A stretch of 64,000 nucleotides of DNA, taken from contig NC_134834.1 in the NCBI RefSeq assembly GCF_004210375.1, forward strand, positions 10,029,857 to 10,093,856, in the 5' to 3' direction. The stretch is from Tachypleus tridentatus. Lineage: Eukaryota; Arthropoda; Merostomata; Xiphosura; Limulidae. Below the pieces are notes generated by a model that saw only the letters and a list, made by a program, of their open reading frames with translations, ran no database searches and was not told where the DNA came from. The translations under genes were made by a program, and so were the position numbers. Of this stretch, positions 33,417 through 64,000 are shown one piece after another (position 1 is the stretch's first letter; every line of letters begins with the position of its first letter).

Positions 33417-33516
33417 GGCATCCCAGAGTCTGAAGGCTTACCATCGCTAAAAATCGGGGTTCGATACTCGTGGCGAGCACAGCACAGATATCCTTTCATT
33501 TCGCGACGAACAAACA
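33417..33516 (+). mobile_element. SINE fragment, family B
   Basis: Contains GGGGTTCGATACTCGTGG then CACAGATATCC and a CGAACAAACA tail. Diverged. Confidence 0.6.
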
Positions 33517-34602: not shown

Positions 34603-35432
34603 TTAGCACCAATCATCATCAGAGTCAGTATGTGGACCAACACGACGTAAAGCTGGCATAATTACTTCCCGTTCTTTTTGACCTGGCTTGTAACCATTAG
34701 GCAGTGGCGATGGAAGCTGTCGACAGCTTCTTCCTACAGCTGCTGATGCTTGGAAAGTGACCAGTTTGTCATTATGCCCAACAGGGTCAAAACTTCTGTC
34801 CAGGGTAGGGTAAAAGTCTACACTACGAGTATGTTCCTGACCACGTGGCAAATTAACGTTGCTGCTAGCCACCCTTCCGCCTGGTCTTAGAGATGGGCTC
34901 TGAGGTCCAGTACTCACAGTAGTTCTTTGTTGTCGGAATGTCATCTGGGATTTTGGCAGATGTGTAGGCGAAGCATTTACTCTTGGAAAGTTAATACTAA
35001 ATATTGATTTGTTACTGGGCTCGAGCACTGTTGGCGAACAGGACACAACAGGAAAGTTGATCCTTTCCATGGATCGAACACCAACATACAGAGTGGATGG
35101 TTTGATGGGAGTTGGGGGTAATTTCCTTCCCCGCGAAATTCTCTGCAATGGTAAGCTATGTGCGGAGGCTGGGCTCACACTACGGGTATACTCTTCTAAT
35201 GGTGATTTACTATAATATTCACTGTGAGTTGGAGTGAGGTTTGGACTAAGTCTGTGGGATCGTCTGTAGGAATACGTTGTCTGGTGTTCTGGACTGATAC
35301 TGTGACTTTGCTCGTGTGATGGAGAGGAAACTCGCCAAGGTGATGGCTTGCCGAACGTCGATCGAACCGGTGTCCTTCCTCCATACCTCGTACCTTCTTC
35401 AGATATGACAAATTCATCAACTCGAGGTTTGG
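34603..35432 (-). CDS. cac: Terminal coding exon of a CaV2-type voltage-gated calcium channel alpha1 subunit
   Basis: This is the cytoplasmic C-terminal tail of the presynaptic calcium channel pore subunit (cacophony/UNC-2/CaV2 group). The exon begins after a minus-strand acceptor TTTTCTGAAATTGTAG with two bases (CC) completing a split codon, then 275 codons and TAA at 34603-34605. RKLPPTP (residues 102-108, positions 35107-35127) matches the R-x-L-P-x-T-P type site that binds RIM-binding-protein SH3 domains. CRQLPSPLPNGY (236-247) resembles the RRLPNGY block near the end of vertebrate CaV2.1. The final residues SDDDWC match the D-x-W-C PDZ ligand of CaV2 channels. The remainder is Ser/Pro-rich and disordered, as is usual for this tail. 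Pore and EF-hand/IQ exons are not in the window. The frame is intact. Confidence 0.9.
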
Positions 35433-36401
35433 CTACAATTTCAGAAAACAAAAGGAAACAGTTATAACGTGATTTTGCTACTCTCTACGTAATAATTGAT
35501 AAACGTTTTGATACAAATGTGTCAGAAAAAAATTCGTTATGGCATCGATGGTGCTTGCAATTGAGTTTTAAAAGGATACAAAAATAGAGCATCTGAGTTC
35601 CAATTACACACACTACTGTCATCTACTTACTATAGTAGTATTCGATAGTATATTTTGAAACAGTAATCCATCTGTTGGTTTACTGTTTCATGAAGTACTG
35701 AACTGCAAACGTCTTTAGAAATGCAGTAAAACGTTTTTCTGTTCAAATCAGGCCTAACGGGAGTTAAGCCTATTGCTTGCTTGTTAATGCGGCCACAGAC
35801 ACTGTCAAATAAATAATAACAAGAAGAAATAACAAAATTATTTTGGTTCCGCAATTAATTGTCAAATACTACTGTAATAAAAATTAACATGTATTTATAA
35901 TATTTTTTAATATTTACTTGAATGTACTTTTGGCTTTATTAGAAAGCAAGAATTTAACTCCCACTAGGCCTAATTCGTACTCATTAACATTGTATGTTTG
36001 AGTATTGCTTTTATACGTTACGTCGTTAATTGAATATATTATCAGTGAAATAATTAAGAATGTATGAGGACATTATTAAAGTCAAATAAACCAATTAAGT
36101 GTAATTTCATTATAATTTATATCCAACAACTGTTTCTTCATAATGAACTTAAAACACTAAGAAGTAAGGTTCTGTTCAGCATACGGTTTGGTCGTTAAAC
36201 GTTACAAGCACACACATGAAACACATTCATGTCCTATGTTTTAGCCACACACTATGATATTAACCACATTTAGATTTGTAAACCGTGAAGAAAAGGTGCT
36301 TTCCTTCAAACTTTCCAGGATTTACCAGCTTGAAATTTCGGATATACGATAGACTAAGACACTTGTCTTTTTGTTTTCGCTGCGTTTATGGACAAACAAC
36401 T
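35433..36401 (-). other. 3' part of the last CaV2 intron
   Basis: AT-rich non-coding DNA between the acceptor at 35433-35434 and the 63-bp array. I found no additional exon. A 74-codon minus frame at 35630-35854 has no motif. Confidence 0.6.
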
Positions 36402-39287
36402 CTTCCAAAGGTGTTTTTGGTACTGAATATTGTGTGTAAGCCTTGTCTAATATATATAGAAACTGTTTCCAAAGGTGTCTTTTGTACTGAATATTGTGTG
36501 TAGAGATCTCTATCTATTATACAGGAAACTGTTTCAAAGGTGTCTTTTGTACTGAATATTGTCTGTAAGCCTTGTCTATTATATAGGAAACTGTTTCCAA
36601 AGGTGTCTTTTGTACTGAATATTGTGTGTGTAAGCCTTTGTCTATTATATAGGAAACTGTTTCAGCTGGTGTCTTTTGTAACTGAATATTGTGTGTAACT
36701 CTTGTCTATTATATAGGAAACTGTTTCCAAAGGTGTCTTTTGTACTGAATATTGTGTACAAGTCTTGTCTATTATATAGAAACTGTTTCCAAAGGTGTCT
36801 TTGTACTGAATATTGTGTGTAAGTCTTGTCTATTATATAGGAAACTGTTTCCAAAGGTGTCTTTTGTACTGAATATTGTGTGTAAGTCTTGTCTGGTGTA
36901 TTATAAAGGAAACTGTGTCTGTGGTGTGTGTTTATAGTGTAAGTCTTGTGTCTTTTTTGTACTGAATATTGTGTGTAAGTCTTGTCTATTATATAGGAAA
37001 CTGTTTCCAAAGGTGTCTGTTGTAAATTGTACTGAATATTGTGTGTAAGTCTTGTCTATTATATAGGAAACTGTTTCCAAAGGTGTTTTGTAAAGGTGTC
37101 TTGTCTGTACTGAATATTGTGTGTAAGCCTTGTCTATTATATAGGAAACTGCTTCCAAAGGTCTTTGGTACTGAATATTGTGTGTCTTGTCTGTTGCTAT
37201 AGGAAAACTGTCATAAAGGTGTCTGAATATTGTGTGTAAGCCTTGTCTATTATATAGGAAACTGTTTCCAAAGGTGTCTTTTGTACTGAATATTGTGTAA
37301 GTCTTGTCTATTATATAGGTGAAACTGTTTCCAAAGGTGTCTTTTTATGAACTGAATATTGTGTGTAACTCTTGTCTATTATATAGGAAACTGTTTCCAA
37401 AGGTGTCTTTGTACTGAATATTGTGTGTAAGCTCTTGTCTATTATATAGGAAACTGTTTCCAAAGGTGTCTTTTGTACTGAATATTGTGTGTGTTCCTGT
37501 CTATTATATAGGAAACTGTTTCCAAAGGTGTCTTTTTTTGTACTGAATATTGTTTGTAAGCCTTGACTATTATATAGGAAACTGTTTCCAAAGGTGTCTT
37601 TTGTAATGAATATTGTGTGTAAGCCTTGTCTATTATATAGTGTTCTGTTTCCAAAGGTGTCTTTTGTACTGAATATTGTGTGTAACTCCTTGTCTATTAT
37701 ATAGGAAACTGTTTCCAGTCTGCTGTTTTTTTTTTACTGGACATTGTGTGTAACTCTTGTCTATTATATAGGAAACTGTTTCCAAAAGTGTCTTTTGTAC
37801 TGAATATTGTGTGTAATCCTCTTGTCTATTATATAGAAATAAGTTTCCAAAGGTGTCTTTTGTACTGAATATTGTGTGGTGGGGTGTCCTTGTCTATTAT
37901 ATAGGAAAACTGTTTCCAAAGGTGTCTTTGTAACCTGAATATTGTGTGTAAGTCTTGTCTATTTATATAGGAAACTGTTCTGGTGCTTGTGTCTTTGTAC
38001 TGAATTACTGTGTGTAACTCTTGTCTAATATTATATAGGAAAACCTGTTTCTGTGAAGTGTGTCTGTTATTGTGTAGGTGCAATGAACATGGCTGTTTAA
38101 GCCTTGTTCATTTATGTATAGGAAACTGTTTCCAGTTGTGTCCTTTTGTACTGAATATTGTGTGTGTAAGTCTTGTCTGTTTGAGTAGGAAACTACTTCC
38201 AGTTGTGTCTTTTGTAACTGAATACTGTAAAACAAAAGCCCGTGTGTCATATATATAGGAAACTGTTTCCAAAGGTGTCTTCTTTTGTACTGAATATTGT
38301 GTGTGTAACCTGTCTGTCTATATATATAGGAAACTGTCTGGGGTGTTGCTGTCTTTGTAACTGAATATCATAAAAATAAGCCCCTTGTCTATTAATATAG
38401 GAAACTGTTTCTCTTGATAGTGTGTCTTTTGAACCGAAATATTGTGTGTGTTTCCTATGTCTATTATATAGGAAAACTGTTTCCAGTCTATGTGTCTTTT
38501 GTACCGATATATCAGTGCAGTAAGCTCTTGGTTCATATATATAGGAAACTGTTTCCAGTTGCAGTCTTTTGTACCTGAATATTGTGTGTAACCTCTTGTC
38601 TATTATATAGGAAACTGTTTCCGGTGGTGTCTTTTGTAATTGAATATTGTGTGTAACTCTTGTCTATTATATAGGAAACTGTTTCCAAAGGTGTCTTTTG
38701 TACTGAATATTGTGTGTAAGCCTTTGTCTATTATATAGGAAACTGCTTCCAAAGGTGTCTTTGTACTGAATATTGTGTGTGTGTGTTCTTGTCTGTTATA
38801 TAGGAAACTGTTTCCAAAGGTGTCTTGTACTGAATATTGTGTGTGTAAGTTTCTGTCTCATTATATAGGAAACCTGCCTGTCCAAAGGTGTCTTTTGTAC
38901 TGAATATTGTGTGTAAGTCTTCCTGTCTATTATATAGGAAACCTGCTCCAGTTGTGCTCTTTTGTACTTGAATATTGTGTGTAAGTCTTGTCTATTATAT
39001 AGGAAACTGTTTCCAAAGTGTGGTTTTTGTACTGAATATTGTGTGTAAGCCTTGTCTATTATAGGTAGGAAACTGTTTCCAAAGGTGTCTTTTGGCACTG
39101 AATATTTGTGTAAGCCCTCTATTATGGTAGGAAACTGTTTCACAAAGGTGTCTTTTGTACTGAATATTGTGTGTAAGTCCTTGTCTATTTATATAGGAAA
39201 CTGTTTCCAAAGTCTTTGTACTAATATTGTGTGTGTTCTTGTCTAATATATATAGGAAACTTCCAAAGGTGTCTTTTGTACTGAATA
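36402..39287 (-). repeat. 63-bp minisatellite, minus orientation, truncated by an assembly gap (about 46 units)
   Basis: Units on the plus strand carry AAACTGTTTCCAAAGGTGTC and TACTGAATATTGTGTGTAAG. This is the exact reverse complement of the unit at 47626-64000. The array starts about 970 bp from the acceptor of the terminal CaV2 exon, inside the intron. Units are regular at first but from about 37700 to the gap they carry many small insertions and deletions, which looks like unpolished long-read consensus at a contig end or a decayed edge. Open frames here are repeat artefacts. Confidence 0.95.
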
Positions 39288-39787
39288 NNNNNNNNNNNNN
39301 NNNNNNNNNNNNNNNNNNNNNNNNNNNNNNNNNNNNNNNNNNNNNNNNNNNNNNNNNNNNNNNNNNNNNNNNNNNNNNNNNNNNNNNNNNNNNNNNNNNN
39401 NNNNNNNNNNNNNNNNNNNNNNNNNNNNNNNNNNNNNNNNNNNNNNNNNNNNNNNNNNNNNNNNNNNNNNNNNNNNNNNNNNNNNNNNNNNNNNNNNNNN
39501 NNNNNNNNNNNNNNNNNNNNNNNNNNNNNNNNNNNNNNNNNNNNNNNNNNNNNNNNNNNNNNNNNNNNNNNNNNNNNNNNNNNNNNNNNNNNNNNNNNNN
39601 NNNNNNNNNNNNNNNNNNNNNNNNNNNNNNNNNNNNNNNNNNNNNNNNNNNNNNNNNNNNNNNNNNNNNNNNNNNNNNNNNNNNNNNNNNNNNNNNNNNN
39701 NNNNNNNNNNNNNNNNNNNNNNNNNNNNNNNNNNNNNNNNNNNNNNNNNNNNNNNNNNNNNNNNNNNNNNNNNNNNNNNNNNNNNNN
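39288..39787. other. Assembly gap of exactly 500 N
   Basis: A run of 500 unknown bases. The round number suggests a scaffolding placeholder of unknown true size, so order and orientation across it rest on scaffolding evidence rather than contiguous sequence. Confidence 1.
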
Positions 39788-42700
39788 AAACATTCATTCC
39801 TTAAGTAGTTGTACAGAAGTTGTGTTTCACCCCTCAATACAGTTTAAACATTCATTCCTTAAGTAGTTGTACATAAGTTGTGTTTCAACATTCATTTCTT
39901 AAGTAGTTGTACATAAGTTGTGTTTCACTCTCAATACAGTTTAAACATTCATTTCTTAAGTAGTTGTACAAAGTTGTGTTTCACTCCTCAATACAGTTTA
40001 AACATTCATTTCTTAAGTAGTTGTACAGAAGTTGTGTTTCACCCCTCAATACAGTTTAAACATTCATTCCTTAAGTAGTTGTACATAAGTTGTGTTTCAC
40101 TCCTCAATACAGTTTAAACATTCATTTCTTAAGTAGTTGTACATAAGTTGTGTTTCACTCCTCAATACAGTTTAAACATTCATTCTTAAGTAGTTATACA
40201 TAAGTTGTGTTTCACTCCTCAATACAGTTTAAACATTCATTCCTCAAGTAGTTGTACATAAGTTGTGTTTCACCCTCAATACAGTTTAAACATTCATTTC
40301 TTAAGTAGTTGTACATAAGTTGTGTTTCACCCCTCAATACAGTTTAAACATTCATTCCTTAAGTAGTTGTACATAAGTTGTGTTTCACCCTCAATACAGT
40401 TTAAACATTCATTTCTTAAGTAGATGTACATAAGTTGTGTTTCACCCCTCAATACAGTTTAAACATTCATTTCTTAAGTAGTTGTACATAAGTTGTGTTT
40501 CATTCCTCAATACAGTTTAAACATTCATTTCTTAAGTAGTTGTACATAAGTTGTGTTTCACTCCTCAATACAGTTTAAACATTCATTTCTTAAGTAGTTG
40601 TACATAAGTTGTGTTTCATTCCTCAATACAGTTTAAACATTCATTTCTTAAGTAGTTGTACATAAGTTGTGTTTCATTCCTCAATACAGTTTAAACATTC
40701 ATTTCTTAAGTAGTTGTACATAAGTTGTGTTTCACATCCTCAATACAGTTTAAACATTCATTTCTTAAGTAGTTGTACATAAGTTGTGTTTCACTCCTCA
40801 ATACAGTTTAAACATTCATTTCTTAAGTAGTTGTACATAAGTTGTGTTTCAAATACAGTTTAAACATTCATTTCTTAAGTAGTTGTACATAAGTTGTGTT
40901 TCACTCCTCAATACAGTTTAAACATTCATTTCTTAAGTAGTTGTACATAAGTTGTGTTTCACTCCTCAATACAGTTTAAACATTCATTTCTTAAGTAGTT
41001 ATACATAAGTTGTGTTTCACCCTCAATACAGTTTAAACATTCATTTCTTAAGTAGTTGTACATAAGTTGTGTTTCACTCCTCAATACAGTTTAAACATTC
41101 ATTCCTTAAGTAGTTGTACATAAGTTGTGTTTCACCCTCAATACAGTTTAAACATTCATTTCTTAAGTAGTTGTACATAAGTTGTGTTTCACCCCTCAAT
41201 ACAGTTTAAACATTCATTTCTTAAGTAGTTGTACATAAGTTGTGTTTCACCCCTCAATACAGTTTAAACATTCATTTCTTAAGTAGTTGTACATAAGTTG
41301 TGTTTCACCCCTCAATACAGTTTAAACATTCATTTCTTAAGTAGTTGTACATAAGTTGTGTTTCACCCTCAATACAGTTTAAACATTCATTCCTTAAGTA
41401 GTTGTACATAAGTTGTGTTTCACCCTCAATACAGTTTAAACATTCATTCCTTAAGTAGTTGTACATAAGTTGTGTTTCACCCCTCAATACAGTTTAAACA
41501 TTCATTCCTTAAGTAGTTGTACATAAGTTGTGTTTCACTCCTCAATACAGTTTAAACATTCATTTCTTAAGTAGTTGTACATAAGTTGTGTTTCACTCCT
41601 CAATACAGTTTAAACATTCATTTCTTAAGTAGTTGTACATAAGTTGTGTTTCACTCCTCAATACAGTTTAAACATTCATTCCTTAAGTAGTTGTACATAA
41701 GTTGTGTTTCACTCCTCAATACAGTTTAAACATTCATTCCTTAAGTAGTTGTACATAAGTTGTGTTTCACTCCTCAATACAGTTTAAACATTCATTCCTT
41801 AAGTAGTTGTACATAAGTTGTGTTTCACTCCTCAATACAGTTTAAACATTCATTTCTTAAGTAGTTGTACATAAGTTGTGTTTCATTCCTCAATACAGTT
41901 TAAACATTCATTCCTTAAGTAGTTGTACATAAGTTGTGTTTCACTCCTCAATACAGTTTAAACATTCATTTCTTAAGTAGTTGTACATAAGTTGTGTTTC
42001 ACTCCTCAATACAGTTTAAACATTCATTTCTTAAGTAGTTGTACATAAGTTGTGTTTCAACATTCATTTCTTAAGTAGTTGTACATAAGTTGTGTTTCAC
42101 TCCTCAATACAGTTTAAACATTCATTCCTTAAGTAGTTGTACATAAGTTGTGTTTCACTCCTCAATACAGTTTAAACATTCATTTCTTAAGTAGTTGTAC
42201 ATAAGTTGTGTTTCACTCCTCAATACAGTTTAAACATTCATTCCTTAAGTAGTTGTACATAAGTTGTGTTTCACCCCTCAATACAGTTTAAACATTCATT
42301 TCTTAAGTAGTTGTACATAAGTTGTGTTTCACTCCTCAATACAGTTTAAACATTCATTTCTTAAGTAGTTGTACATAAGTTGTGTTTCACTCCTCAATAC
42401 AGTTTAAACATTCATTTCTTAAGTAGTTGTACATAAGTTGTGTTTCACTCCTCAATACAGTTTAAACATTCATTCCTTAAGTAGTTGTACATAAGTTGTG
42501 TTTCACTCCTCAATACAGTTTAAACATTCATTCCTTAAGTAGTTGTACATAAGTTGTGTTTCACTCCTCAATACAGTTTAAACATTCATTCCTTAAGTAG
42601 TTGTACATAAGTTGTGTTTCACTCCTCAATACAGTTTAAACATTCATTCCTTAAGTAGTTGTACATAAGTTGTGTTTCACTCCTCAATACAGTTTAAACA

Positions 42701-43522
42701 TTCATTTCTTAAGTAGTTGTACATAAGTTGTGTTTCATTCCTCAATACAGTTTAAACATTCATTCCTCAAGTAGTTGTACATAAGTTGTGTTTCACCCCT
42801 CAATACAGTTTAAACATTCATTCCTTAAGTAGTTGTACATAAGTTGTGTTTCACTCCTCAATACAGTTTAAACATTCATTCCTTAAGTAGTTGTACATAA
42901 GTTGTGTTTCACTCCTCAATACAGTTTAAACATTCATTCCTTAAGTAGTTGTACATAAGTTGTGTTTCACCCCTCAATACAGTTTAAACATTCATTTCTT
43001 AAGTAGTTGTACATAAGTTGTGTTTCACTCCTCAATACAGTTTAAACATTCATTTCTTAAGTAGTTGTACATAAGTTGTGTTTCACTCCTCAATACAGTT
43101 TAAACATTCATTTCTTAAGTAGTTGTACATAAGTTGTGTTTCACTCCTCAATACAGTTTAAACATTCATTCCTTAAGTAGTTGTACATAAGTTGTGTTTC
43201 ACTCCTCAATACAGTTTAAACATTCATTCCTTAAGTAGTTGTACAGAAGTTGTGTTTCACTCCTCAATACAGTTTAAACATTCATTTCTTAAGTAGTTGT
43301 ACATAAGTTGTGTTTCATTCCTCAATACAGTTTAAACATTCATTCCTTAAGTAGTTGTACATAAGTTGTGTTTCATTCCTCAATACAGTTTAAACATTCA
43401 TTTCTTAAGTAGTTGTACATAAGTTGTGTTTCATTCCTCAATACAGTTTAAACATTCATTCCTTAAGTAGTTATACATAAGTTGTGTTTCACTCCTCAAT
43501 ACAGTTTAAACATTCATTTCTT
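39788..43522. repeat. 58-bp minisatellite (about 65 units)
   Basis: Units contain TTAAGTAGTTGTACATAAGT and CAATACAGTTTAAACATTCA. They vary at CATTTCTT/CATTCCTT and CACTCC/CACCCC/CATTCC. Units with one base missing (CACCCTC) are 57 bp, giving a 60-codon minus frame at 41305-41487 that is not a gene. The left edge abuts the N gap, so the array is truncated there. The right edge ends abruptly at 43522. Confidence 0.96.
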
Positions 43523-43598
43523 ATATTTGACGTAAGTCTCGTTAGTTCTAGTTGTATCTAGACATAAAGTAAAATCTAACTTCACTTTATTCATTCAG

Positions 43599-43716
43599 TA
43601 TCGACAAAGTTAACGACAACTCAGATAGAACCTGGCAGAACACTTTCAGTTTTCTTCGTCGTGGAAGTAGTCGAAGAAAGCGCCACCCTGCGGAGAACGA
43701 AGAACCTGAATTTCAG
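43599..43716 (+). CDS. Probable internal exon, likely CaV2 C-terminal tail
   Basis: The acceptor is CTTCACTTTATTCATTCAG with a good branch-site match TCTAAC about 20 nt upstream, and the donor is TTTCAG/GTTGGT. One base completes a split codon, then 39 open codons include TWQNTFSFLRRGSSRRKRHP and end EEPEFQ in phase 0. That phase fits the next exon at 47290/47293. The basic, Ser/Arg-rich composition suits a channel cytoplasmic tail. I cannot confirm the family by homology from memory; the CaV2 assignment rests on phase, composition and the inversion argument. It could belong to an unrelated plus-strand gene. Confidence 0.55.
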
Positions 43717-43991
43717 GTTGGTTTCCGTTTTCTGTCAATCAGTTTCGAGTGAGTGGGTTCGTAGTTTTATCACTTTCCTCGGAGAGGCGCTTCGTTACAT
43801 AACATTTTCATATTACTCCGAACACGTTAGCCCTCTGTTGATTTGTTTTTAAGATACAAATTAACTTTGAGTCAAATATATATGAAATTATTTATTTAAA
43901 GTGAAATTGATTTTGCTACCAACTACCACATTTTAAGTGTTATCATAAATTTGTTGTGTGTGCGTGTGTTTATTTTAGTAGCAACGACACA
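43717..43991 (+). other. Putative intron, 5' part
   Basis: AT-rich, with a short TG-rich tract at about 43955-43975. Nothing else is recognised. Confidence 0.4.
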
Positions 43992-44079
43992 TCAGGCTAT
44001 CTGCTGTGTCCGCCGAGGAGAATCGAACCCATGATTTCAGCGTTGTAAATCTGTAGACTTTCCGCTGTACCAGCGAGAG
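43992..44079 (-). mobile_element. SINE fragment, family C
   Basis: The minus strand reads GGGTTCGATTCTCCTCGGCG then CAGATAGCCTGATG, a tRNA-like head and the start of the body. Confidence 0.65.
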
Positions 44080-44390
44080 ACTTTTGTTGTTGGAACGAAA
44101 GATATTCCAAATTTTTACTAATTGCATGCTTCATGTAGAAAACAAATAGTTGTTGTACGAGTTAGTTTTGTTCCTAGTCATTGTTATAATGTCAAATGGA
44201 GTATTATTTATTAGTCTACAGAATATCGCTTTTTAATACGACTAATTAAACTGCTCGTAGTGTTAACTTCTGCTCTCCTATACTAAACTAAAATACACTA
44301 TCCAACTTGCCAGTGTTGTCTGATAGAACTTTCCAATTCGTGATGAAGAGAAACCAACTTGAAATAAAAATGTATCTCATGTTTTTTTAA

Positions 44391-44509
44391 GTATTAAAAC
44401 TTTTACTAATGAAGCAGAGAACAATGTTTTGACCTTATCAGGCTATCTTCATGTGAACCTTCTTAGGTCAAAACGTTGTTCTCTGCTTCATTAGTAAAAT
44501 TTTTAATAC
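44391..44509. repeat. Long hairpin: 45-bp inverted repeat with 29-nt loop
   Basis: The left arm 44391-44435 and right arm 44465-44509 are complementary at 43 of 45 positions; both contain ACTAATGAAGCAGAGAACAA or its complement. The 29-nt spacer contains GGCTATCTTCATGTGAACC. It could be a small foldback transposon or MITE. It lies between the two plus-strand exon-like blocks, so it would be transcribed as a strong RNA hairpin if they are one gene. Confidence 0.85.
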
Positions 44510-44816
44510 CCATACCAGCCGTCATGAGATACGAATATCTCAATGTTCAATTAATTGTTTAAAAAAAAAAACATTAATGGAAGTTATCTTTCAAGCGACG
44601 TAGATGAGTTTATTACATCTGTTTCGTACTAAGTAACGTCTGATAAGAGTTTTTAATGTTCAGTAATTTAGAGAAAGTTTTATAGTAAAAGGTATCTATC
44701 TGACGACTCCCAAAAGATGTTTAGTTTGTTTGTAATTTTTACGTGAAACCAGTTTTTGCCTGATTGTTGAATTTAAGTAAATTATTTTTGTTTTAATAAA
44801 ATGATCCAGAAATACG
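44510..44816. other. AT-rich intronic-looking spacer
   Basis: No recognised feature between the hairpin and the 45-bp array. Confidence 0.4.
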
Positions 44817-45256
44817 CAAAAACAGTTAACCCTAAATTCTGTAGGCACAACAGTCCAGTTGCAAAAGCAGTTAACCCTAAATTCTGTAAACACAACAGTC
44901 CAGTGGCAAAACAGTTAACCCTAAATTCTGTAGACACAACAGTCCAGTTGCAAAACAGTTAACCCTAAATTCTGTAAACACAACAGTCCAATTGCAAAAA
45001 CAGTTAACCCTAAATTCTGTAGACACAACAGTCCAGTTGCAAAAACAGTTAACCCTAAATTCTGTAAACACAACAGTCCAATTGCAAAAACAGTTAACCC
45101 TAAATTCTGTAGACACAACAGTCCAGTTAAAACAGTTAACCTAAATTCTGTAGACACAAGAGTCAGTTGCAAAAACAGTTAACCCTAAATTCTGTATACA
45201 CAACAGTCCAATTGCAAAAACAGTTAACCCTAAATTCTGTAGACACAACAGTCCAG
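44817..45256. repeat. 45-bp minisatellite (about 10 units)
   Basis: Units contain AACAGTTAACCCTAAATTC and TGTAGACACAACAGTCCAGT, varying at GTAGACA/GTAAACA and CCAGTTGC/CCAATTGC. The period is divisible by three, so three overlapping minus-strand open frames appear; they are not genes. Confidence 0.95.
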
Positions 45257-45500
45257 CTTCATTTTTGTAGGTTAAAGTGTATGCGCGGTTATTCCTACCG
45301 TAATTTAGAAAGATAGGGTTAGAGCTAAGTGTTGTCTGAACACTAAACTGTTGAGTAACCATAGAAATATGGAGTTTGTTTGTTGACAAACCTTAGTGAT
45401 ATAAAGTAGTGGATAAATAACATAATATTTTCGTTGAAGTTGTTATTTTTCCCTATATATATGTGTGTTAATCTCGTTATTACAAGAATCTCTGTGTTTA
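45257..45500. other. Spacer, no recognised features
   Basis: Non-repetitive by eye; no exon or RNA signal. Confidence 0.4.
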
Positions 45501-45910
45501 TATACAGAGAAAGATAGACAGATAGATGTATATACTAGCAAAGCTTCGCGGTAAAGCCGACTTTAAAAAGCAATGCTACAAATAAGGCGAGGTCCGTCCC
45601 TTCCAATATTTTGAGCTACAACACACAAAACGTTCGTCTGATGCAAAAGTGCCCATTCTACGCGCGCCAATTAACGTCATTTTCGTTTGACGTCAGCTTC
45701 GTGTATTTTAATACCGACATTTCCCGCTCAGTTTGAGCCCTCGTTTGCGGTATTAAATTGAAATGGCGTCGCATGCATCCGATTGCTAATTGACTTAAAA
45801 TCCAACTTATAAGATCTAAGTTCCTCTACAAATATCCCAACTAGTTCAACCACCTTTTTGCAACACCTTGTGATACGAGACACATGGATAACAATTTCTT
45901 AAGCTATATC
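45501..45910 (-). mobile_element. Possible 3' fragment of a retroelement
   Basis: The segment is GC-richer than its flanks. On the minus strand it ends GGCTTTACCGCGAAGC then TTGCTAGTATATACATC and a GATA/GACA-type simple repeat (AGATAGACAGATAGATG on the plus strand). A simple-repeat end beside a GC-rich body is typical of some LINE 3' ends. No reverse-transcriptase reading frame was found, so the call is tentative. Confidence 0.3.
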
Positions 45911-46107
45911 CGAAAATCCAAATTTTTATATACAAAGCAAAGTTAATTGAAGTAAAATATTTTGATAAGTATTACAAGTCCAGAATTGTTATATTTATAA
46001 CTAAAATTTTACTTATAGTCCAATATGGTCCATTACGTCTTCTGTGTACTTATCCAAGATATATTGTACCTACTTCGAGGCTTAGCATACATCATTCAAA
46101 TAGGGTT

Positions 46108-46380
46108 ACCCGGCATGGCCAGGTGGGTTAAAGCGTTCGACTCGTAATCTGAGAGTTGCGGATTCGAATCCCCATCACACCAAACGTGCTCGCCCTTTCA
46201 GCCGTGGGGGCGTTATAATGTGACGGTCAATCCCACTATTCGTTGGTAAAAGAGTAGTCCAAGAGTTGGCGGTGGGTGGTGATGACTAGCTGCCTTCCCT
46301 CTAGTCTTACACTTGCTAAATTAGGGACGACTAGCACAGATAGCTCTCGAGTAGCTTTGTGCGAAATTAAAAATAAAAGA
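46108..46380 (+). mobile_element. Full-length family A SINE
   Basis: It has a tRNA-like head with CCCGGCATGGCCAGGTGGG and CGACTCGTAATCTGAG, a body with CGCCCTTTCAGCCGTGGGGG and GAGTTGGCGGTGGGTGGTG, and an A-rich tail. This is the best preserved body in the window. No clear target duplication. The 69-codon frame at 46276-46485 starts inside it. Confidence 0.92.
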
Positions 46381-46833
46381 ATGGTTAAAAGCAGACAGGT
46401 GTCCAGAACGGTATTCAGACAGGTGTTCAGACAAGAGAGAAATAATAAAAAAAAAAAAATTATTCTGTCGGTCTGTTGTTGTTGATTTTCGAACTCAATA
46501 AATAATAAATAGCTGTAGAAAGATCTGGAAAATACATCCTGAAGACACCGAACAGAACGCCCAAACTACAAAGCTGTACCACAGGTATCGAAATCCCAGT
46601 TTTTAGACTTTTTGGATTGTGGGATATCAATCGTTGTTGTAGTTTAAATGTTAATTGGTTACTCCAACAAGTTCAATGGCGAACCGAACCTAGAAAAATC
46701 ACAGTGGTACCATAATGTTATTTTTATATATATGTTAAGTACGGCCGTTTTATTTAGCCCTATTACACTCTGGTGTACAGCGAACTTCGTGCTGACTTCT
46801 AAAGAAAATATTTTCCCTACAAACATGATTACG
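46381..46833. other. Spacer within the putative intron
   Basis: A short A-run follows the SINE at about 46450. The 63-codon plus and 80-codon minus frames around 46650-46900 have no motif and no splice context. Confidence 0.4.
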
Positions 46834-46909
46834 TGCTGACAATCTGCTGAGTCCACCGAGGGGAATCGAACCCTGATTTTTATAGTTGTACATCCGGACA
46901 TGGTCGCAC
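46834..46909 (-). mobile_element. SINE fragment, family C
   Basis: The minus strand reads CAGGGTTCGATTCCCCTCGG then GTGGACTCAGCAGATTGTC. The head and start of the body are preserved. Confidence 0.65.
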
Positions 46910-47289
46910 TTTTTAATTAATAAACTTAATATCACTTTTTAACAATTAGAGTAAAGTTAATATTAGTTTTTAACAATTTAAAAAAGTGAACTGCAGGCCT
47001 ACTCACAAGGTACGTTACGTATGTAGTTATTTAAGCCATTAAACTGGCCAACTCTTGTGTTTAATATATGAAAAACTATATTCACTCACTGACACTGATA
47101 ACAACTACCAAAAACGACGTATCAGTAATTAAATGTTTTCGTGTATATTTTGTAAAATTCTTGTTCGGTGTTTTATAATTGTAGTTGTATAACCAAACGA
47201 TTTCAGTCAATGACTTTCAACATAACGGAAAATACCTAATAAAGTATTGACTTATAATAAATTATATCCACGCTTCTCTGTCTGACGAG

Positions 47290-47506: not shown

Positions 47507-47625
47507 GTGAACTATATTTTATAACTGACCTCCTGATGTCCAATGATGGACACGTTACATGTTGCTAATCACGAAACATTTCTCAAGATAGTTGTTATTG
47601 TTTGTTTTGTAAAGTAGTTTAACTA
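47507..47625 (+). other. Start of the putative last intron
   Basis: About 120 bp of non-repetitive DNA between the donor and the 63-bp array. Confidence 0.6.
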
Positions 47626-50600: not shown

Positions 50601-53600
50601 GACAAGACTTACACACAATATTCAGTACAAAAGACACCTTTGGAAACAGTTTCCTATATAACAGACAAGGCTTACACACAATATTCAGTACAAAAGACAC
50701 CTTTGGAAACAGTTTCCTATATGATAGACAAGACTTACACACAATATTCAGTACAAAAGACACCTTTGGAAACAGTTTCCTATATAATAGACAAGACTTA
50801 CACACAATATTCAGTACAAAAGACACCTTTGGAAACAGTTTCCTATATAATAGACAAGACTTACACACATATTCAGTACCAAAACACCTTTGGAAACAGT
50901 TTCCTATATAATAGACAAGGCTTACACACAATATTCAGTACAAAAGACACCTTTGGAAACAGTTTCCTATATAATAGACAAGACTTACACACAATATTCA
51001 GTACAAAAGACACCTTTGGAAACAGTTTCCTATATAATAGACAAGACTTACACAATATTAAGTACCAAAACCACCTTTGGAAACAGTTTCCTATATAATA
51101 GACAAGACGTACACACAATATTCAGTACAAAAGACACCTTTGGAAACAGTTTCCTATATAATAGACAAGACTTTACACAATATTCAGTACAAAACCACCT
51201 TTGGAAACAGTTTCCTATATAATAGACAAGGCTTACACACAATATTCAGTACAAAAGACACCTTTGGAAACAGTTTTCTATATGATAGACAAGACTTACA
51301 CAATATTAAGTACCAAAACCACCTTTGGAAACAGTTTCCTATATAATAGACAAGGCTTACACACAATATTCAGTACAAAAGACACCTTTGGAAACAGTTT
51401 CCTATATAATAGACAAGACTTACACACAATATTCAGTACAAAAGACACCTTTGGAAACAGTTTCCTATATAATAGACAAGACTTACACAATATTCAGTAC
51501 AAAACCACCTTTGGAAACAGTTTCCTATATAATAGACAAGACTTACACACAATATTCAGTACAAAAGACACCTTTGGAAACAGTTTCCTATATAATAGAC
51601 AAGACTTACACAATATTCAGTACAAAAACACCTTTGGAAACAGTTTCCTATATAATAGACAAGGCTTACACACAATATTCAGTACAAAAGACACCTTTGG
51701 AAACAGTTTCCTATATAATAGACAAGACTTACACACAATATTCAGTACAAAAACACCTTTGGAAACAGTTTCCTATATAATAGACAAGACTTACACACAA
51801 TATTCAGTACAAAAGACACCTTTGAAACAGTTTCCTATATAATAGACAAGGCTTACACACAATATTCAGTACAAAAACACCTTTGGAAACAGTTTCCTAT
51901 ATAATAGACAAGACTTACACACAATATTCAGTACAAAAGACACCTTTGGAAACAGTTTCCTATATAATAGACAAGACTTACACACAATATTCAGTACAAA
52001 AAACACCTTTGGAAACAGTTTCCTATATAATAGACAAGACTTACACACAATATTCAGTACAAAAACACCTTTGGAAACAGTTTCCTATATAATAGACAAG
52101 ACTTACACACAATATTCAGTACAAAAGACACCTTTGGAAACAGTTTCCTATATAATAGACAAGACTTACACACAATATTCAGTACAAAAGACACCTTTGG
52201 AAACAGTTTCCTATATAATAGACAAGACTTACACACAATATTCAGTACAAAACACCTTTGGAAGCAGTTTCTATATGACAGACACCTTTGGAAACAGTTT
52301 CCTATATAATAGACAAGACTTACACACAATATTCAGTACAAAAGACACCTTTGGAAACAGTTTCCTATATAATAGACAAGACTTACACACAATATTCAGT
52401 ACAAAAGACACCTTTGAAACAGTTTCCTATATAATAGACAAGACTTACACACAATATTCAGTACAAAAGACACCTTTGGAAACAGTTTCCTATATAATAG
52501 ACAAGACTTACACACAATATTCAGTACAAAAGACACCTTTGGAAACAGTTTCCTATATAATAGACAAGACTTACACACAATATTCAGTACAAAAGACACC
52601 TTTGGAAACAGTTTCCTATATAATAGACAAGACTTACACACAATATTCAGTACAAAAAACACCTTTGGAAACAGTTTCCTATATAATAGACAAGACTTAC
52701 ACACAATATTCAGTACAAAAGACACCTTTGGAAACAGTTTCCTATATAATAGACAAGGCTTACACACAATATTCAGTACAAAAGACACCTTTGGAAACAG
52801 TTTCCTATATAATAGACAAGGCTTACACACAATATTCAGTACAAAAGACACCTTTGGAAACAGTTTCCTATATAATAGACAAGACTTACACACAATATTC
52901 AGTACAAAAGACACCTTTGGAAACAGTTTCCTATATAATAGACAAGACTTACACACAATATTCAGTACAAAAGACACCTTTGGAAACAGTTTCCTATATA
53001 ATAGACAAGACTTACACACAATATTCAGTACAAAACACCTTTGAAAACAGTTTCCTATATAATAGACAAGGCTTACACACAATATTCAGTACAAAAGACA
53101 CCTTTGGAAACAGTTTCCTATATAATAGACAAGACTTACACACAATATTCAGTACAAAACACCTTTGGAAACAGTTTCCTATATAATAGACAAGACTTAC
53201 ACACAATATTCAGTACAAAACACCTTTGGAAACAGTTTCCTATATAATAGACAAGACTTACACACAATATTCAGTACAAAAGACACCTTTGGAAACAGTT
53301 TCCTATATAATAGACAAGACTTACACACAATATTCAGTACAAAAGACACCTTTGGAAACAGTTTCCTATATAATAGACAAGACTTACACAATATTCAGTA
53401 CAAAAACCACCTTTGGAAACAGTTTCCTATATAATAGACAAGGCTTACACACAATATTCAGTACAAAAACACCTTTGGAAACAGTTTCCTATATAATAGA
53501 CAAGACTTACACACAATATTCAGTACAAAAGACACCTTTGGAAACAGTTTCCTATATAATAGACAAGACTTACACACAATATTCAGTACAAAAGACACCT

Positions 53601-56600
53601 TTGGAAACAGTTTCCTATATAATAGACAAGACTTACACACAATATTCAGTACAAAAGACACCTTTGGAAACAGTTTCCTATATAATAGACAAGACTTACA
53701 CACAATATTCAGTACAAAAGACACCTTTGGAAACAGTTTCCTATATAACAGACAAGGCTTACACACAATATTCAGTACAAAAGACACCTTTGGAAACAGT
53801 TTCCTATATAATAGACAAGACTTACACACAATATTCAGTACAAAAGACACCTTTGGAAACAGTTTCCTATATAATAGACAAGACTTACACACAATATTCA
53901 GTACAAAAGACACCTTTGGAAACAGTTTCCTATATAATAGACAAGACTTACACACAATATTCAGTACAAAAGACACCTTTGGAAACAGTTTCCTATATAA
54001 CAGACAAGGCTTACACACAATATTCAGTACAAAAGACACCTTTGGAAACAGTTTCCTATATAATAGACAAGACTTACACACAATATTCAGTACAAAAGAC
54101 ACCTTTGGAAACAGTTTCCTATATAATAGACAAGACTTACACACAATATTCAGTACAAAAGACACCTTTGGAAACAGTTTCCTATATAATAGACAAGACT
54201 TACACAATATTCAGTACAAAACCACCTTTGGAAACAGTTTCCTATATAATAGACAAGGCTTACACACAATATTCAGTACAAAAGACACCTTTGGAAACAG
54301 TTTCCTATATAATAGACAAGACTTACACACAATATTCAGTACAAAAGACACCTTTGGAAACAGTTTCCTATATAATAGACAAGACTTACACACAATATTC
54401 AGTACAAAAACACCTTTGGAAACAGTTTCCTATATAATAGACAAGACTTACACACAATATTCAGTACAAAAGACACCTTTGGAAACAGTTTCCTATATAA
54501 TAGACAAGACTTACACAATATTCAGTACAAAAACACCTTTGGAAACAGTTTCCTATATAATAGACAAGGCTTACACACAATATTCAGTACAAAAGACACC
54601 TTTGGAAACAGTTTCCTATATAATAGACAAGACTTACACACAATATTCAGTACAAAACACCTTTGGAAACAGTTTCCTATATAATAGACAAGGCTTACAC
54701 ACAATATTCAGTACAAAAGACACCTTTGGAAACAGTTTCCTATATAATAGACAAGACTTACACACAATATTCAGTACAAAAGACACCTTTGGAAACAGTT
54801 TCCTATATAATAGACAAGACTTACACACAATATTCAGTACAAAAACACCTTTGGAAACAGTTTCCTATATAATAGACAAGACTTACACACAATATTCAGT
54901 ACAAAAGACACCTTTGGAAACAGTTTCCTATATAATAGACAAGACTTACACAATATTAAGTACCAAAACCACCTTTGGAAACAGTTTCCTATATAATAGA
55001 CAAGGCTTACACACAATATTCAGTACAAAAGACACCTTTGGAAACAGTTTCCTATATAATAGACAAGACTTACACACAATATTCAGTACAAAAGACACCT
55101 TTGGAAACAGTTTCCTATATAATAGACAAGACTTACACACAATATTCAGTACAAAAGACACCTTTGGAAACAGTTTCCTATATAATAGACAAGACTTACA
55201 CACAATATTCAGTACAAAAGACACCTTTGGAAACAGTTTCCTATATAACAGACAAGGCTTACACACAATATTCAGTACAAAAGACACCTTTGGAAACAGT
55301 TTCCTATATGATAGACAAGACTTACACACAATATTCAGTACAAAAGACACCTTTGGAAACAGTTTCCTATATAACAGACAAGGCTTACACACAATATTCA
55401 GTACAAAAGACACCTTTGGAAACAGTTTCCTATATGATAGACAAGACTTACACACAATATTCAGTACAAAAGACACCTTTGGAAACAGTTTCCTATATAA
55501 CAGACAAGGCTTACACACAATATTCAGTACAAAAGACACCTTTGGAAACAGTTTCCTATATAATAGACAAGACTTACACACAATATTCAGTACAAAAGAC
55601 ACCTTTGGAAACAGTTTCCTATATAATAGACAAGACTTACACACAATATTCAGTACAAAAGACACCTTTGGAAACAGTTTCCTATATAACAGACAAGACA
55701 TACACACAATATTCAGTACAAAAGACACCTTTGGAAACAGTTTCCTATATAATAGACAAGGCTTACACACAATATTCAGTACAAAAGACACCTTTGGAAA
55801 CAGTTTCCTATATAATAGACAAGGCTTACACACAATATTCAGTACAAAAAACACCTTTGGAAACAGTTTCCTATATAATAGACAAGACGTACACACAATA
55901 TTAAGTACCAAAACCACCTTTGGAAACAGTTTCCTATATAATAGACAAGACTTACACACAATATTCAGTACAAAAGACACCTTTGGAAACAGTTTCCTAT
56001 ATAATAGACAAGACTTACACAATATTCAGTACAAAAACACCTTTGGAAACAGTTTCCTATATAATAGACAAGGCTTACACACAATATTCAGTACAAAAGA
56101 CACCTTTGGAAACAGTTTCCTATATAATAGACAAGACTTACACACAATATTCAGTACAAAAACCACCTTTGGAAACAGTTTCCTATATAATAGACAAGAC
56201 TTACACACAATATTCAGTACAAAAGACACCTTTGAAACAGTTTCCTATATAATAGACAAGGCTTACACACAATATTCAGTACAAAACACCTTTGAAACAG
56301 TTTCCTATATAATAGACAAGACGTACACACAATATTCAGTACAAAAGACACCTTTGGAAACAGTTTCCTATATAATAGACAAGGCTTACACACAATATTC
56401 AGTACAAAAAACACCTTTGGAAACAGTTTCCTATATAATAGACAAGACTTACACACAATATTCAGTACAAAAAACACCTTTGGAAACAGTTTCCTATATA
56501 ATAGACAAGACTTACACACAATATTCAGTACAAAAGACACCTTTGGAAACAGTTTCCTATATAATAGACAAGACTTACACACAATATTCAGTACAAAAGA

Positions 56601-59600
56601 CACCTTTGGAAACAGTTTCCTATATAATAGACAAGACTTACACAATATTCAGTACAAAACCACCTTTGGAAACAGTTTCCTATATAATAGACAAGGCTTA
56701 CACACAATATTCAGTACAAAAGACACCTTTGGAAACAGTTTCCTATATAATAGACAAGACTTACACACAATATTCAGTACAAAACACCTTTGGAAACAGT
56801 TTCCTATATAATAGACAAGACTTACACACAATATTCAGTACAAAAGACACCTTTGAAACAGTTTCCTATATAATAGACAAGGCTTACACACAATATTCAG
56901 TACAAAGGACACCTTTGAAACAGTTTCCTATATAATAGACAAGACGTACACACAATATTCAGTACAAAAGACACCTTTGGAAACAGTTTCCTATATAATA
57001 GACAAGGCTTACACACAATATTCAGTACAAAAACACCTTTGGAAACAGTTTCCTATATAATAGACAAGACTTACACACAATATTCAGTACAAAGGACACC
57101 TTTGAAACAGTTTCCTATATAATAGACAAGACGTACACACAATATTCAGTACAAAAGACACCTTTGGAAACAGTTTCCTATATAATAGACAAGGCTTACA
57201 CACAATATTCAGTACAAAAAACACCTTTGGAAACAGTTTCCTATATAATAGACAAGACTTACACACAATATTCAGTACAAAAACACCTTTGGAAACAGTT
57301 TCCTATATAATAGACAAGACTTACACACAATATTCAGTACAAAAGACACCTTTGGAAACAGTTTCCTATATAATAGACAAGACTTACACACAATATTCAG
57401 TACAAAAGACACCTTTGGAAACAGTTTTCTATATAATAGACAAGACTTACACAATATTAAGTACCAAAACCACCTTTGGAAACAGTTTCCTATATAATAG
57501 ACAAGGCTTACACACAATATTCAGTACAAAAGACACCTTTGGAAACAGTTTTCTATATGATAGACAAGACTTACACACAATATTCAGTACAAAACACCTT
57601 TGGAAACAGTTTCCTATATAATAGACAAGACTTACACACAATATTCAGTACAAAAGACACCTTTGAAACAGTTTCCTATATAATAGACAAGACTTACACA
57701 CAATATTCAGTACAAAAGACACCTTTGAAACAGTTTCCTATATAATAGACAAGACGTACACACAATATTCAGTACAAAAGACACCTTTGGAAACAGTTTC
57801 CTATATAATAGACAAGGCTTACACACAATATTCAGTACAAAAAACACCTTTGGAAACAGTTTCCTATATAATAGACAAGACTTACACACAATATTCAGTA
57901 CAAAAGACACCTTTGGAAACAGTTTCCTATATAATAGACAAGACTTACACACAATATTCAATACAACAGACACCTTTGGAAACAGTTTCCTATATAATAG
58001 ACAAGACTTACACACAATATTCAGTACAAAAGACACCTTTGGAAACAGTTTCCTATATAATAGACAAGACTTACACACAATATTCAGTACAAAAGACACC
58101 TTTGGAAACAGTTTCCTATATAATAGACAAGGCTTACACACAATATTCAGTACAAAAGACACCTTTGGAAACAGTTTCCTATATAATAGACAAGACTTAC
58201 ACACAATATTCAGTACAAAAGACACCTTTGGAAACAGTTTCCTATATAATAGACAAGGCTTACACACAATATTCAGTACAAAAGACACCTTTGGAAACAG
58301 TTTCCTATATAATAGACAAGACTTACACACAATATTCAGTACAAAAGACACCTTTGGAAACAGTTTCCTATATAATAGACAAGACTTACACACAATATTC
58401 AGTACAAAAGACACCTTTGGAAACAGTTTCCTATATAAGAGACAAGACTTACACACAATATTCAGTACAAAAAACACCTTTGAAAACAGTTTCCTATATA
58501 ACAGACAAGACTTACACATAATATTCAGAACAAAAGACACCTTTGGAAACAGTTTCCTATATGATAGACAAGACTTACACACAATATTCAGTACAAAAAC
58601 ACCTTTGGAAACAGTTTCCTATATAATAGACAAGGCTTACACACAATATTCAGTACAAAAGACACCTTTGGAAACAGTTTCCTATATAATAGACAAGACT
58701 TACACACAATATTCAGTACAAAAGACACCTTTGGAAACAGTTTCCTATATAACAGACAAGGCTTACACACAATATTCAGTACAAAAGACACCTTTGGAAA
58801 CAGTTTCCTATATGATAGACAAGACTTACACACAATATTCAGTACAAAAGACACCTTTGGAAACAGTTTCCTATATAACAGACAAGGCTTACACACAATA
58901 TTCAGTACAAAAGACACCTTTGGAAACAGTTTCCTATATAATAGACAAGACTTACACACAATATTCAATACAACAGACACCTTTGGAAACAGTTTCCTAT
59001 ATAATAGACAAGGCTTACACACAATATTCAGTACAAAAGACACCTTTGGAAACAGTTTCCTATATAATAGACAAGACTTACACACAATATTCAGTACAAA
59101 AGACACCTTTGGAAACAGTTTCCTATATAATAGACAAGACTTACACACAATATTCAGTACAAAAGACACCTTTGGAAACAGTTTCCTATATAATAGACAA
59201 GACTTACACAATATTCAGTACAAAACCACCTTTGGAAACAGTTTCCTATATAATAGACAAGGCTTACACACAATATTCAGTACAAAAGACACCTTTGAAA
59301 CAGTTTCCTATATAATAGACAAGACGTACACACAATATTCAGTACAAAAGACACCTTTGGAAACAGTTTCCTATATAATAGACAAGACTTACACACAATA
59401 TTCAGTACAAAACCACCTTTGGAAACAGTTTCCTATATAATAGACAAGACTTACACACAATATTCAGTACAAAAGACACCTTTGGAAACAGTTTCCTATA
59501 TAATAGACAAGACTTACACACAATATTCAGTACAAAACACCTTTGGAAACAGTTTCCTATATAATAGACAAGGCTTACACACAATATTCAGTACAAAAGA

Positions 59601-62600
59601 CACCTTTGGAAACAGTTTCCTATATAATAGACAAGACTTACACACAATATTCAGTAACAAAAGACACCTTTGGAAACAGTTTCCTATATAATAGACAAGA
59701 CTTACACAATATTCAGTACAAAACACCTTTGGAAACAGTTTCCTATATAATAGACAAGACTTACACACAATATTCAGTACAAAAGACACCTTTGGAAACA
59801 GTTTCCTATATAATAGACAAGACTTACACAATATTCAGTACAAAACCACCTTTGGAAACAGTTTCCTATATAATAGACAAGGCTTACACACAATATTCAG
59901 TACAAAAGACACCTTTGGAAACAGTTTCCTATATAATAGACAAGACTTACACACAATATTCAGTACAAAAGACACCTTTGGAAACAGTTTCCTATATAAC
60001 AGACAAGACTTACACACAATATTCAGTACAAAAGACACCTTTGGAAACAGTTTCCTATATAATAGACAAGACTTACACACAATATTCAGTACAAAAGACA
60101 CCTTTGGAAACAGTTTCCTATATAATAGACAAGGCTTACACACAATATTCAGTACAAAAGACACCTTTGGAAACAGTTTCCTATATAATAGACAAGACTT
60201 ACACACAATATTCAGTACAAAAGACACCTTTGGAAACAGTTTCCTATATAATAGACAAGGCTTACACACAATATTCAGTACAAAAGACACCTTTGGAAAC
60301 AGTTTCCTATATAATAGACAAGACTTACACACAATATTCAGTACAAAAGACACCTTTGGAAACAGTTTCCTATATAACAGACAAGGCTTACACACAATAT
60401 TCAGTACAAAAGACACCTTTGGAAACAGTTTCCTATATAATAGACAAGACTTACACACAATATTCAGTACAAAAGACACCTTTGGAAACAGTTTCCTATA
60501 TAATAGACAAGACTTACACACAATATTCAGTACAAAAGACACCTTTGGAAACAGTTTCCTATATAATAGACAAGACTTACACACAATATTCAGTACAAAA
60601 GACACCTTTGGAAACAGTTTCCTATATAACAGACAAGGCTTACACACAATATTCAGTACAAAAGACACCTTTGGAAACAGTTTCCTATATAATAGACAAG
60701 GCTTACACACAATATTCAGTACAAAAAACACCTTTGGAAACAGTTTCCTATATAATAGACAAGACTTACACACAATATTCAGTACAAAACACCTTTGGAA
60801 ACAGTTTCCTATATAATAGACAAGACTTACACACAATATTCAGTACAAAAGACACCTTTGGAAACAGTTTTCTATATGATAGACAAGACTTACACAATAT
60901 TAAGTACCAAAACCACCTTTGGAAACAGTTTCCTATATAATAGACAAGGCTTACACACAATATTCAGTACAAAAGACACCTTTGAAACAGTTTCCTATAT
61001 AACAGACAAGGCTTACACACAATATTCAGTACAAAGGACACCTTTGAAACAGTTTCCTATATAATAGACAAGACTTACACACAATATTCAGTACAAAAGA
61101 CACCTTTGGAAACAGTTTCCTATATAATAGACAAGGCTTACACACAATATTCAGTACAAAAAACACCTTTGGAAACAGTTTCCTATATAATAGACAAGAC
61201 TTACACACAATATTCAGTACAAAAAACACCTTTGGAAACAGTTTCCTATATAATAGACAAGACTTACACACAATATTCAGTACAAAAGACACCTTTGGAA
61301 ACAGTTTCCTATATAATAGACAAGACTTACACACAATATTCAGTACAAAAGACACCTTTGGAAACAGTTTTCTATATGATAGACAAGACTTACACAATAT
61401 TAAGTACCAAAACCACCTTTGGAAACAGTTTCCTATATAATAGACAAGACTTACACACAATATTCAGTACAAAAGACACCTTTGAAACAGTTTCCTATAT
61501 AACAGACAAGGCTTACACACAATATTCAGTACAAAAGACACCTTTGAAACAGTTTCCTATATAATAGACAAGACGTACACACAATATTCAGTACAAAAGA
61601 CACCTTTGGAAACAGTTTCCTATATAATAGACAAGGCTTACACACAATATTCAGTACAAAAAACACCTTTGGAAACAGTTTCCTATATAATAGACAAGAC
61701 TTACACACAATATTCAGTACAAAAAACACCTTTGGAAACAGTTTCCTATATAATAGACAAGACTTACACACAATATTCAGTACAAAAGACACCTTTGGAA
61801 ACAGTTTCCTATATAATAGACAAGAGTTACACACAATATTCAGTACAAAAGACACCTTTGGAAACAGTTTCCTATATAATAGACAAGACTTACACACAAT
61901 ATTCAGTACAAAAGACACCTTTGGAAACAGTTTCCTATATAATAGACAAGACTTACACACAATATTCAGTACAAAAGACACCTTTGGAAACAGTTTCCTA
62001 TATAATAGACAAGGCTTACACACAATATTCAGTACAAAAGACACCTTTGGAAACAGTTTCCTATATAATAGACAAGGCTTACACACAATATTCAGTACAA
62101 AAGACACCTTTGGAAACAGTTTCCTATATAATAGACAAGGCTTACACACAATATTCAGTACAAAAGACACCTTTGGAAACAGTTTCCTATATAATAGACA
62201 AGACTTACACACAATATTCAGTACAAAAGACACCTTTGGAAACAGTTTCCTATATAATAGACAAGGCTTACACACAATATTCAGTACAAAAGACACCTTT
62301 GGAAACAGTTTCCTATATAATAGACAAGACTTACACACAATATTCAGTACAAAAGACACCTTTGAAAACAGTTTCCTATATAATAGACAAGACTTACACA
62401 CAATATTCAGTACAAAAGACACCTTTGGAAACAGTTTCCTATATAATAGACAAGACTTACACAATATTCAGTACAAAACCACCTTTGGAAACAGTTTCCT
62501 ATATAATAGACAAGGCTTACACACAATATTCAGTACAAAAGACACCTTTGGAAACAGTTTCCTATATAATAGACAAGACTTACACACAATATTCAATACA

Positions 62601-64000
62601 ACAGACACCTTTGGAAACAGTTTCCTATATAATAGACAAGACTTACACACAATATTCAGTACAAAAGACACCTTTGGAAACAGTTTCCTATATAATAGAC
62701 AAGGCTTACACACAATATTCAGTACAAAAGACACCTTTGGAAACAGTTTCCTATATAATAGACAAGACTTACACACAATATTCAGTACAAAAGACACCTT
62801 TGGAAACAGTTTCCTATATAACAGACAAGGCTTACACACAATATTCAGTACAAAAGACACCTTTGGAAACAGTTTCCTATATAATAGACAAGACTTACAC
62901 ACAATATTCAGTACAAAAGACACCTTTGGAAACAGTTTCCTATATAATAGACAAGGCTTACACACAATATTCAGTACAAAAGACACCTTTGGAAACAGTT
63001 TCCTATATAATAGACAAGACTTACACAATATTCAGTACAAAACCACCTTTGGAAACAGTTTCCTATATAATAGACAAGGCTTACACACAATATTCAGTAC
63101 AAAAGACACCTTTGGAAACAGTTTCCTATATAATAGACAAGACTTACACACAATATTCAGTACAAAAGACACCTTTGGAAACAGTTTCCTATATAATAGA
63201 CAAGACTTACACACAATATTCAGTACAAAAGACACCTTTGGAAACAGTTTCCTATATAATAGACAAGACTTACACACAATATTCAGTACAAAAGACACCT
63301 TTGGAAACAGTTTCCTATATAACAGACAAGACTTACACACAATATTCAGTACAAAAGACACCTTTGGAAACAGTTTCCTATATAATAGACAAGACTTACA
63401 CACAATATTCAGTACAAAAGACACCTTTGGAAACAGTTTCCTATATAATAGACAAGGCTTACACACAATATTCAGTACAAAAGACACCTTTGGAAACAGT
63501 TTCCTATATAATAGACAAGACTTACACACAATATTCAGTACAAAAGACACCTTTGGAAACAGTTTCCTATATAACAGACAAGGCTTACACACAATATTCA
63601 GTACAAAAGACACCTTTGGAAACAGTTTCCTATATAATAGACAAGACTTACACACAATATTCAGTACAAAAGACACCTTTGGAAACAGTTTCCTATATAA
63701 TAGACAAGGCTTACACACAATATTCAGTACAAAAACACCTTTCGAAACTGTTTCCTATATAATAGACAAGACTTACACACAATATTCAGTACCAAAAGAC
63801 ACCTTTGGAAACAGTTTCCTATATAACAGACAAGGCTTACACACAATATTCAGTACAAAAGACACCTTTGGAAACAGTTTCCTATATAATAGACAAGACT
63901 TACACACAATATTCAGTACAAAAGACACCTTTGGAAACAGTTTCCTATATAATAGACAAGACTTACACAATATTCAGTACAAAACACCTTTGGAAACAGT
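47626..64000 (+). repeat. 63-bp minisatellite, plus orientation, running off the window (about 260 units)
   Basis: Units contain CCTATATAATAGACAAG, TTACACACAATATTCAGTAC and CACCTTTGGAAACAG. Recurrent variants are AAGACTT/AAGGCTT/AAGACGT, ATAATAG/ATAACAG/ATGATAG, AAAAGACACC/AAAAAACACC/AAAACACC, a GG deletion giving CCTTTGAAACAG, and an AATATTAAGTACC form. Because 63 is 21 codons and most units lack stops in two plus frames and one minus frame, long open frames arise on both strands (up to 839 codons at 54416-56935). They switch register at unit-length changes and carry no other gene signal. The right edge is outside the window. Confidence 0.97.

Follow-up and report, generated by a model that had tools for sequence, protein, structure and literature searches.

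Is the CaV2 gene of Tachypleus tridentatus really divided between two strands, or has the assembly turned a part of it round? The window, the whole stretch of 64,000 nucleotides that was analysed, corresponds to C10:10029857-10093856 (C10 being NC_134834.1), and the genome searched comprised 2,167,478,450 bases in 205 contigs. A Pfam search for coagulin, a family known as specific to horseshoe crabs, gave 19 matches, in keeping with the species. An earlier note had assigned the last CaV2 exon to the minus strand left of an assembly gap and two exon-like blocks to the plus strand right of it. It proposed one gene split at the gap, with inversion of the right contig joining position 47506 to 35432. 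The strand-split appearance is most likely an assembly error, not biology, and we are highly confident that it stems from a haplotypic false duplication with a misoriented haplotig. The left contig starts 9.2 kb before the window, and the features are as follows.

1..39287, minus strand: left contig, placed by reverse-strand self-alignment; whole contig C10:10020700-10069143, 48.4 kb, with a 500-N gap on each side
1..13996, minus strand: 50-bp minisatellite of mostly GGTAGG-type units, from the contig start (TRF)
34603..35432, minus strand: terminal CaV2 exon, open to the stop, DDDWC end
36403..39287, minus strand: 63-bp minisatellite at the end of the left contig, noisy
39288..39787, no strand: assembly gap of 500 N
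39788..64000, plus strand: right contig, free of N onward to at least C10:10173856
39788..43523, plus strand: 58-bp minisatellite, inside which the right contig begins
43599..43716, plus strand: CaV2 exon block 1; second copy with flank at C10:9752705-9753265 (+)
47290..47506, plus strand: CaV2 exon block 2; second copy within C10:9756422-9756792 (+)
47632..64000, plus strand: 63-bp minisatellite in the intron preceding the terminal exon, continuing to C10:10102267, 24.8 kb in total

The observations on which the earlier note was built have been reproduced. The minus-strand exon opens after the acceptor TTGTAG with CC and runs through 276 open codons to a TDSDDDWC-stop end. Block 1 lies between an ATTCAG acceptor and a CAG/GTTGGT donor and ends in phase 0. 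Block 2 has the acceptor GACGAG and the donor AAAG/GTGAAC, starts in phase 0 and ends with a single G, which chains with the CC of the terminal exon to GCC (Ala). The 63-bp array flanks both, in one orientation at 36403-39287 and in the other from 47632 to the window end, and the gap between the contigs is exactly 500 N long, the default of 3D-DNA. A tRNA-like SINE was recognized by eye at window 46105-46370, in the intron between the two blocks; no tRNA genes were found by ARAGORN.

The gene is named CaV2 because of the C-terminal motif, the other loci and a GPHH exon. The C-terminus reads TDSDDDWC in the window copy and DSEDDWC in all four copies on C3 and C2; a C-terminal DDWC is described as the conserved CaV2 ligand of the Mint and RIM PDZ domains (PMC11405698). 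Against solved chains, the GPHH exon at C10:9736891 (+) matched R-type alpha-1E (CaV2.3) at 6.6e-09, P/Q-type alpha-1A (CaV2.1) at 7e-07 and N-type alpha-1B (CaV2.2) at 1.1e-06, and the best L-type chain at 0.0045. Two features place the gene in CaV2, the DDWC-type PDZ ligand and a GPHH region nearer to CaV2 than to CaV1. The terminal exon had no match among solved structures, and Pfam gave no family for the terminal exon or for block 2. That blocks and terminal exon are parts of one gene type, as the earlier note had assumed, follows from two CaV2 loci on C2, where block 2 homologues (58% and 65% identical protein) lie directly upstream of a terminal exon on the same strand. This adjacency is more than chance. 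At C2:121.92 Mb, the splice sites give the same phase-1 intron. At the two C3 copies, the 1.5 kb preceding the terminal exon showed no block 2.

A genome search with the minus-strand exon returned seven places: the window copy, C10:10103238-10104066 (+), C19:67733346 (-), two on C3 and two on C2. The second of these belongs to the right contig.

C10:10103238-10104066, window-equivalent 73382-74210, plus strand: terminal exon of the right contig, same acceptor, after the 63-bp array

Block 2, the 63-bp array (C10:10077488-10102267) and this exon follow one another in a single stretch free of N. The exon carries a T run one T shorter than the window copy, so that the frame is shifted and a stop occurs at codon 232. 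The C19 copy has the shorter run too; either a read error that recurs or a genuine variant may lie behind it. The proposed join of 47506 to 35432 fails, since a plus-strand terminal exon is already present in the right contig. Transcripts splicing 47506 to a plus-strand exon past 64000 had been named by the earlier note as evidence against its proposal; at the level of sequence, such an exon exists, without an intervening N. The right contig was also suspected of reaching its end inside the 63-bp array; the array stops at C10:10102267, which is not a contig end. Exon phases and the array match agree with a single gene split at the gap, but the right contig would have to be chimaeric inside the array, and the probability of this reading is close to nil. 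The opposite orientation of the two contigs relative to one CaV2 transcript stands, with the assembly as its likely cause; the partner chosen for the join was wrong.

The left contig is instead a reversed second copy. Its 22.4-kb part between the end arrays aligns reversed to C10:10102268-10124313. Best alignments of left and right, taken over 22 bins of 1 kb, were 95.0-100% identical, three bins being aligned over less than 95% of their length; small internal arrays blur part of these bins. When a 2-kb piece from the left contig was searched, 40 candidates were scored, of which two were near-identical, one on each strand. Divergence is uneven, from 0 to ~34 substitutions per kb. The first 9 kb show 0-3 substitutions per kb, which is low for alleles reaching ~34 further on and counts against an allelic relation. 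In another species, the mangrove horseshoe crab, a heterozygosity of 0.8% has been reported (PMC7210998).

The same 9 kb, in which the differences are mostly short indels, would fit one haplotype assembled twice through read errors, the left and right contigs then being the same molecule. The noisy array end of the left contig also speaks for this. Per 100 bases, its 63-bp array has 5.1 substitutions, 6.1 inserted and 2.3 deleted bases, vs 1.5, 0.05 and 0.8, respectively, in the right contig; such noise is what poorly corrected sequence near the end of a contig would be expected to show. At the far end, however, where the counts per 1-kb bin (0-31 overall) reach 31, the next bin, at 19 kb, has 22 substitutions in 641 aligned bases. 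Moreover, the 50-bp arrays consist of different unit types, with TAGG/AAGG/AAAG counts of 345/93/1 in the left and 14/63/196 in the right contig. Therefore, left and right are unlikely to be one molecule assembled twice, and we consider this origin highly improbable.

The array variants point to other contigs as neighbours of the left one. The variants of its 50-bp units are unlike those of the array at C10:10124314-10138937, and agree with those of the array between C10:10271330 and 10287.7k. Genome-wide, a 41-base word taken from the left contig's 50-bp array has 252 occurrences, 213 in reverse and 39 forward. The reverse count equals that of the left contig itself, in which all 61 of the 213 listed by place are situated; 38 of the 39 forward occurrences fall in a contig here called Y and one in the right contig. 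Contig Y begins after N at C10:10271330, inside this rare variant of the 50-bp array, 202 kb right of the left contig (30 N in the fetched stretch). It also holds, at C10:10287762 (+), a 99% copy of the sequence right after the right contig's 50-bp array.

On the other side, a contig here called X ends inside the 63-bp array at C10:9768819, followed by 500 N, 252 kb left of the left contig, of which it is the likely partner. Contig X carries the second copy of blocks 1 and 2 (C10:9752705-9756792, +) on the same strand as in the window, and the unique flanks of the two block copies differ by 4.4 and 15.7 substitutions per kb. In block 2 itself, the copies show an Arg/Leu difference. The GPHH exon lies 16 kb upstream of these blocks, assumed to be within the same contig. 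It was found once in this part of C10, so that doubling is confined, among the parts tested, to those at the 3' end. Genome-wide, 20 GPHH matches were obtained, 11 of them in five groups of equal bit score. The genome search with the terminal exon found none near X. The 63-bp array of X was read at both ends, and exact unit matches are dense in between. From X to the left contig, the sequence read comprises C10:9769320-9769950 and 9989857-10020199. The contig ending at C10:10020199 has a 97% copy at C10:9493148, ~524 kb upstream; of the 1.8 kb used as query, 1.2 kb aligned. The end of X overlaps the reversed left contig by 7 bases, which was discounted, as chance is too likely in a 63-bp array.

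Because array variants and contig ends inside arrays match, a single haplotype can be put together from X, the reversed left contig and Y, and we infer that they are joined in this order in the genome. The sequenced animal would have two alleles of the CaV2 locus that differ strongly in their minisatellites. Haplotype A would have been assembled in pieces broken inside arrays, namely X with blocks 1 and 2, the left contig with the terminal exon, and Y. The right contig would represent haplotype B, reading 58-bp array, blocks 1 and 2, 63-bp array, terminal exon and 50-bp array. Scaffolding would then have produced the order X, left contig (reversed), B and Y. The allelic nature of the copies is deduced from what the assembly displays directly, namely doubled sequence with its orientation, gaps, contigs that stop within arrays, and array variants. 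Near-identical copies are bounded by gaps, the left contig is gapped at both ends, and X and Y end in the same arrays. An estimated ~250 kb of upstream haplotype B is without counterpart, which counts against two haplotypes. The pattern suggests that minisatellites decided where the contigs broke.

If the 3' end of CaV2 were truly duplicated in inverted orientation, a minus-strand terminal exon and ~22 kb of downstream sequence would lie inside the gene region of the genome itself. Both copies indeed lie on one scaffold in opposite orientation, and their arrays are unlike in composition. The CaV2 locus on C3 is likewise found twice in opposite orientation, 220 kb apart, at 110678789-110679559 (-) and 110899411-110900181 (+). 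Aligned without gaps over 3771 bp, these C3 terminal-exon regions share 99.07% identity, and the doubled locus is probably another kept allele. Against a real duplication on C10, the copy stops on either side at a contig end that lies inside an array and beside a 500-N gap, and each of these ends has its match in the end of another contig. The exons upstream and the sequence downstream are doubled too, but in direct orientation, and redundancy of the assembly has already been published (PMC7210998). A real inverted duplication is thus very unlikely.

The copy on C19 also favours a real duplication.

C19:67731131-67768744 (exon 67733346), minus strand: third copy of the terminal exon and its flank (4 kb together); the contig holding it has 37.6 kb and is gapped at both ends

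Apart from these 4 kb, the contig is mostly 63-bp array (33.6 kb). With it, the terminal exon exists in three copies, vs two near-identical ones for the 2-kb piece. Two haplotypes alone do not explain this copy, which counts against the allelic interpretation. Along these 4 kb, 15 substitutions separate it from both C10 copies, and the first 0.94 kb holds 14 of them. It has 16 deletions of its own of one or two bases each, and the exon reaches a stop at codon 62. The C19 copy is likely a badly corrected contig, and a real extra copy is possible. An inverted extra CaV2 3' end, perhaps a structural polymorphism seeded by minisatellites that also spread a copy to C19, has only a slight chance of being correct. 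The contig left of the C19 copy was searched for an allelic partner. It holds a 3.3-kb high-copy repeat, for which the best match of each of 40 scored candidates was 95-100% identical (C19, C14, C11, C12, C59), a result uninformative on alleles.

Haplotypic duplication with one copy reversed agrees with what has been described for this species. In a T. tridentatus assembly, 4855 of 34,966 proteins had duplicates when identity was set at >=98% and coverage at >=70%, and redundancy and mis-assembly were stated for the chromosome-scale assembly (PMC7210998). The case is alike in its near-identical duplicates and apparently concerns the same assembly; unlike the present analysis, the passages on redundancy count duplicated proteins, and the CaV2 locus is unmentioned in them. 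Other T. tridentatus assemblies have 1.72 and 1.94 Gb, and a further one 2.06 Gb, for which the k-mer estimate is 2.22 Gb (PMC7011531); therefore, the larger size of the 2.167-Gb assembly alone proves nothing. Heterotype false duplications, as treated by the Vertebrate Genomes Project (PMC8081667), and haplotypic duplications (PMC10548655) are described as contigs of diverged haplotypes within one primary assembly that can be misread as exon or gene duplications. The CaV2 locus differs from these published cases in that one haplotig is also reversed and the gene seems split between strands.

Biologically, the locus is very likely unremarkable: the CaV2 gene has large minisatellites in its introns, and redundancy of the assembly had been reported before. 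An annotation made from the C10 scaffold could give CaV2 a wrong-strand exon and would leave one allele without its C-terminus. Gene counts of horseshoe crabs serve as an argument for three rounds of genome duplication. Unpurged alleles inflate these counts and break gene models. Near-identical copies aside, four loci carry a CaV2 terminal exon (one each on C10 and C3, two on C2), which is what repeated genome duplication would lead one to expect. The C10 coordinates of the copies can be checked by re-assembly. Within the left contig, an ORF of 162 aa at window 17495-17983 matches the DDE_3 endonuclease family (Pfam, 3.7e-08) and is presumably a fragment of a Tc1-like transposase.
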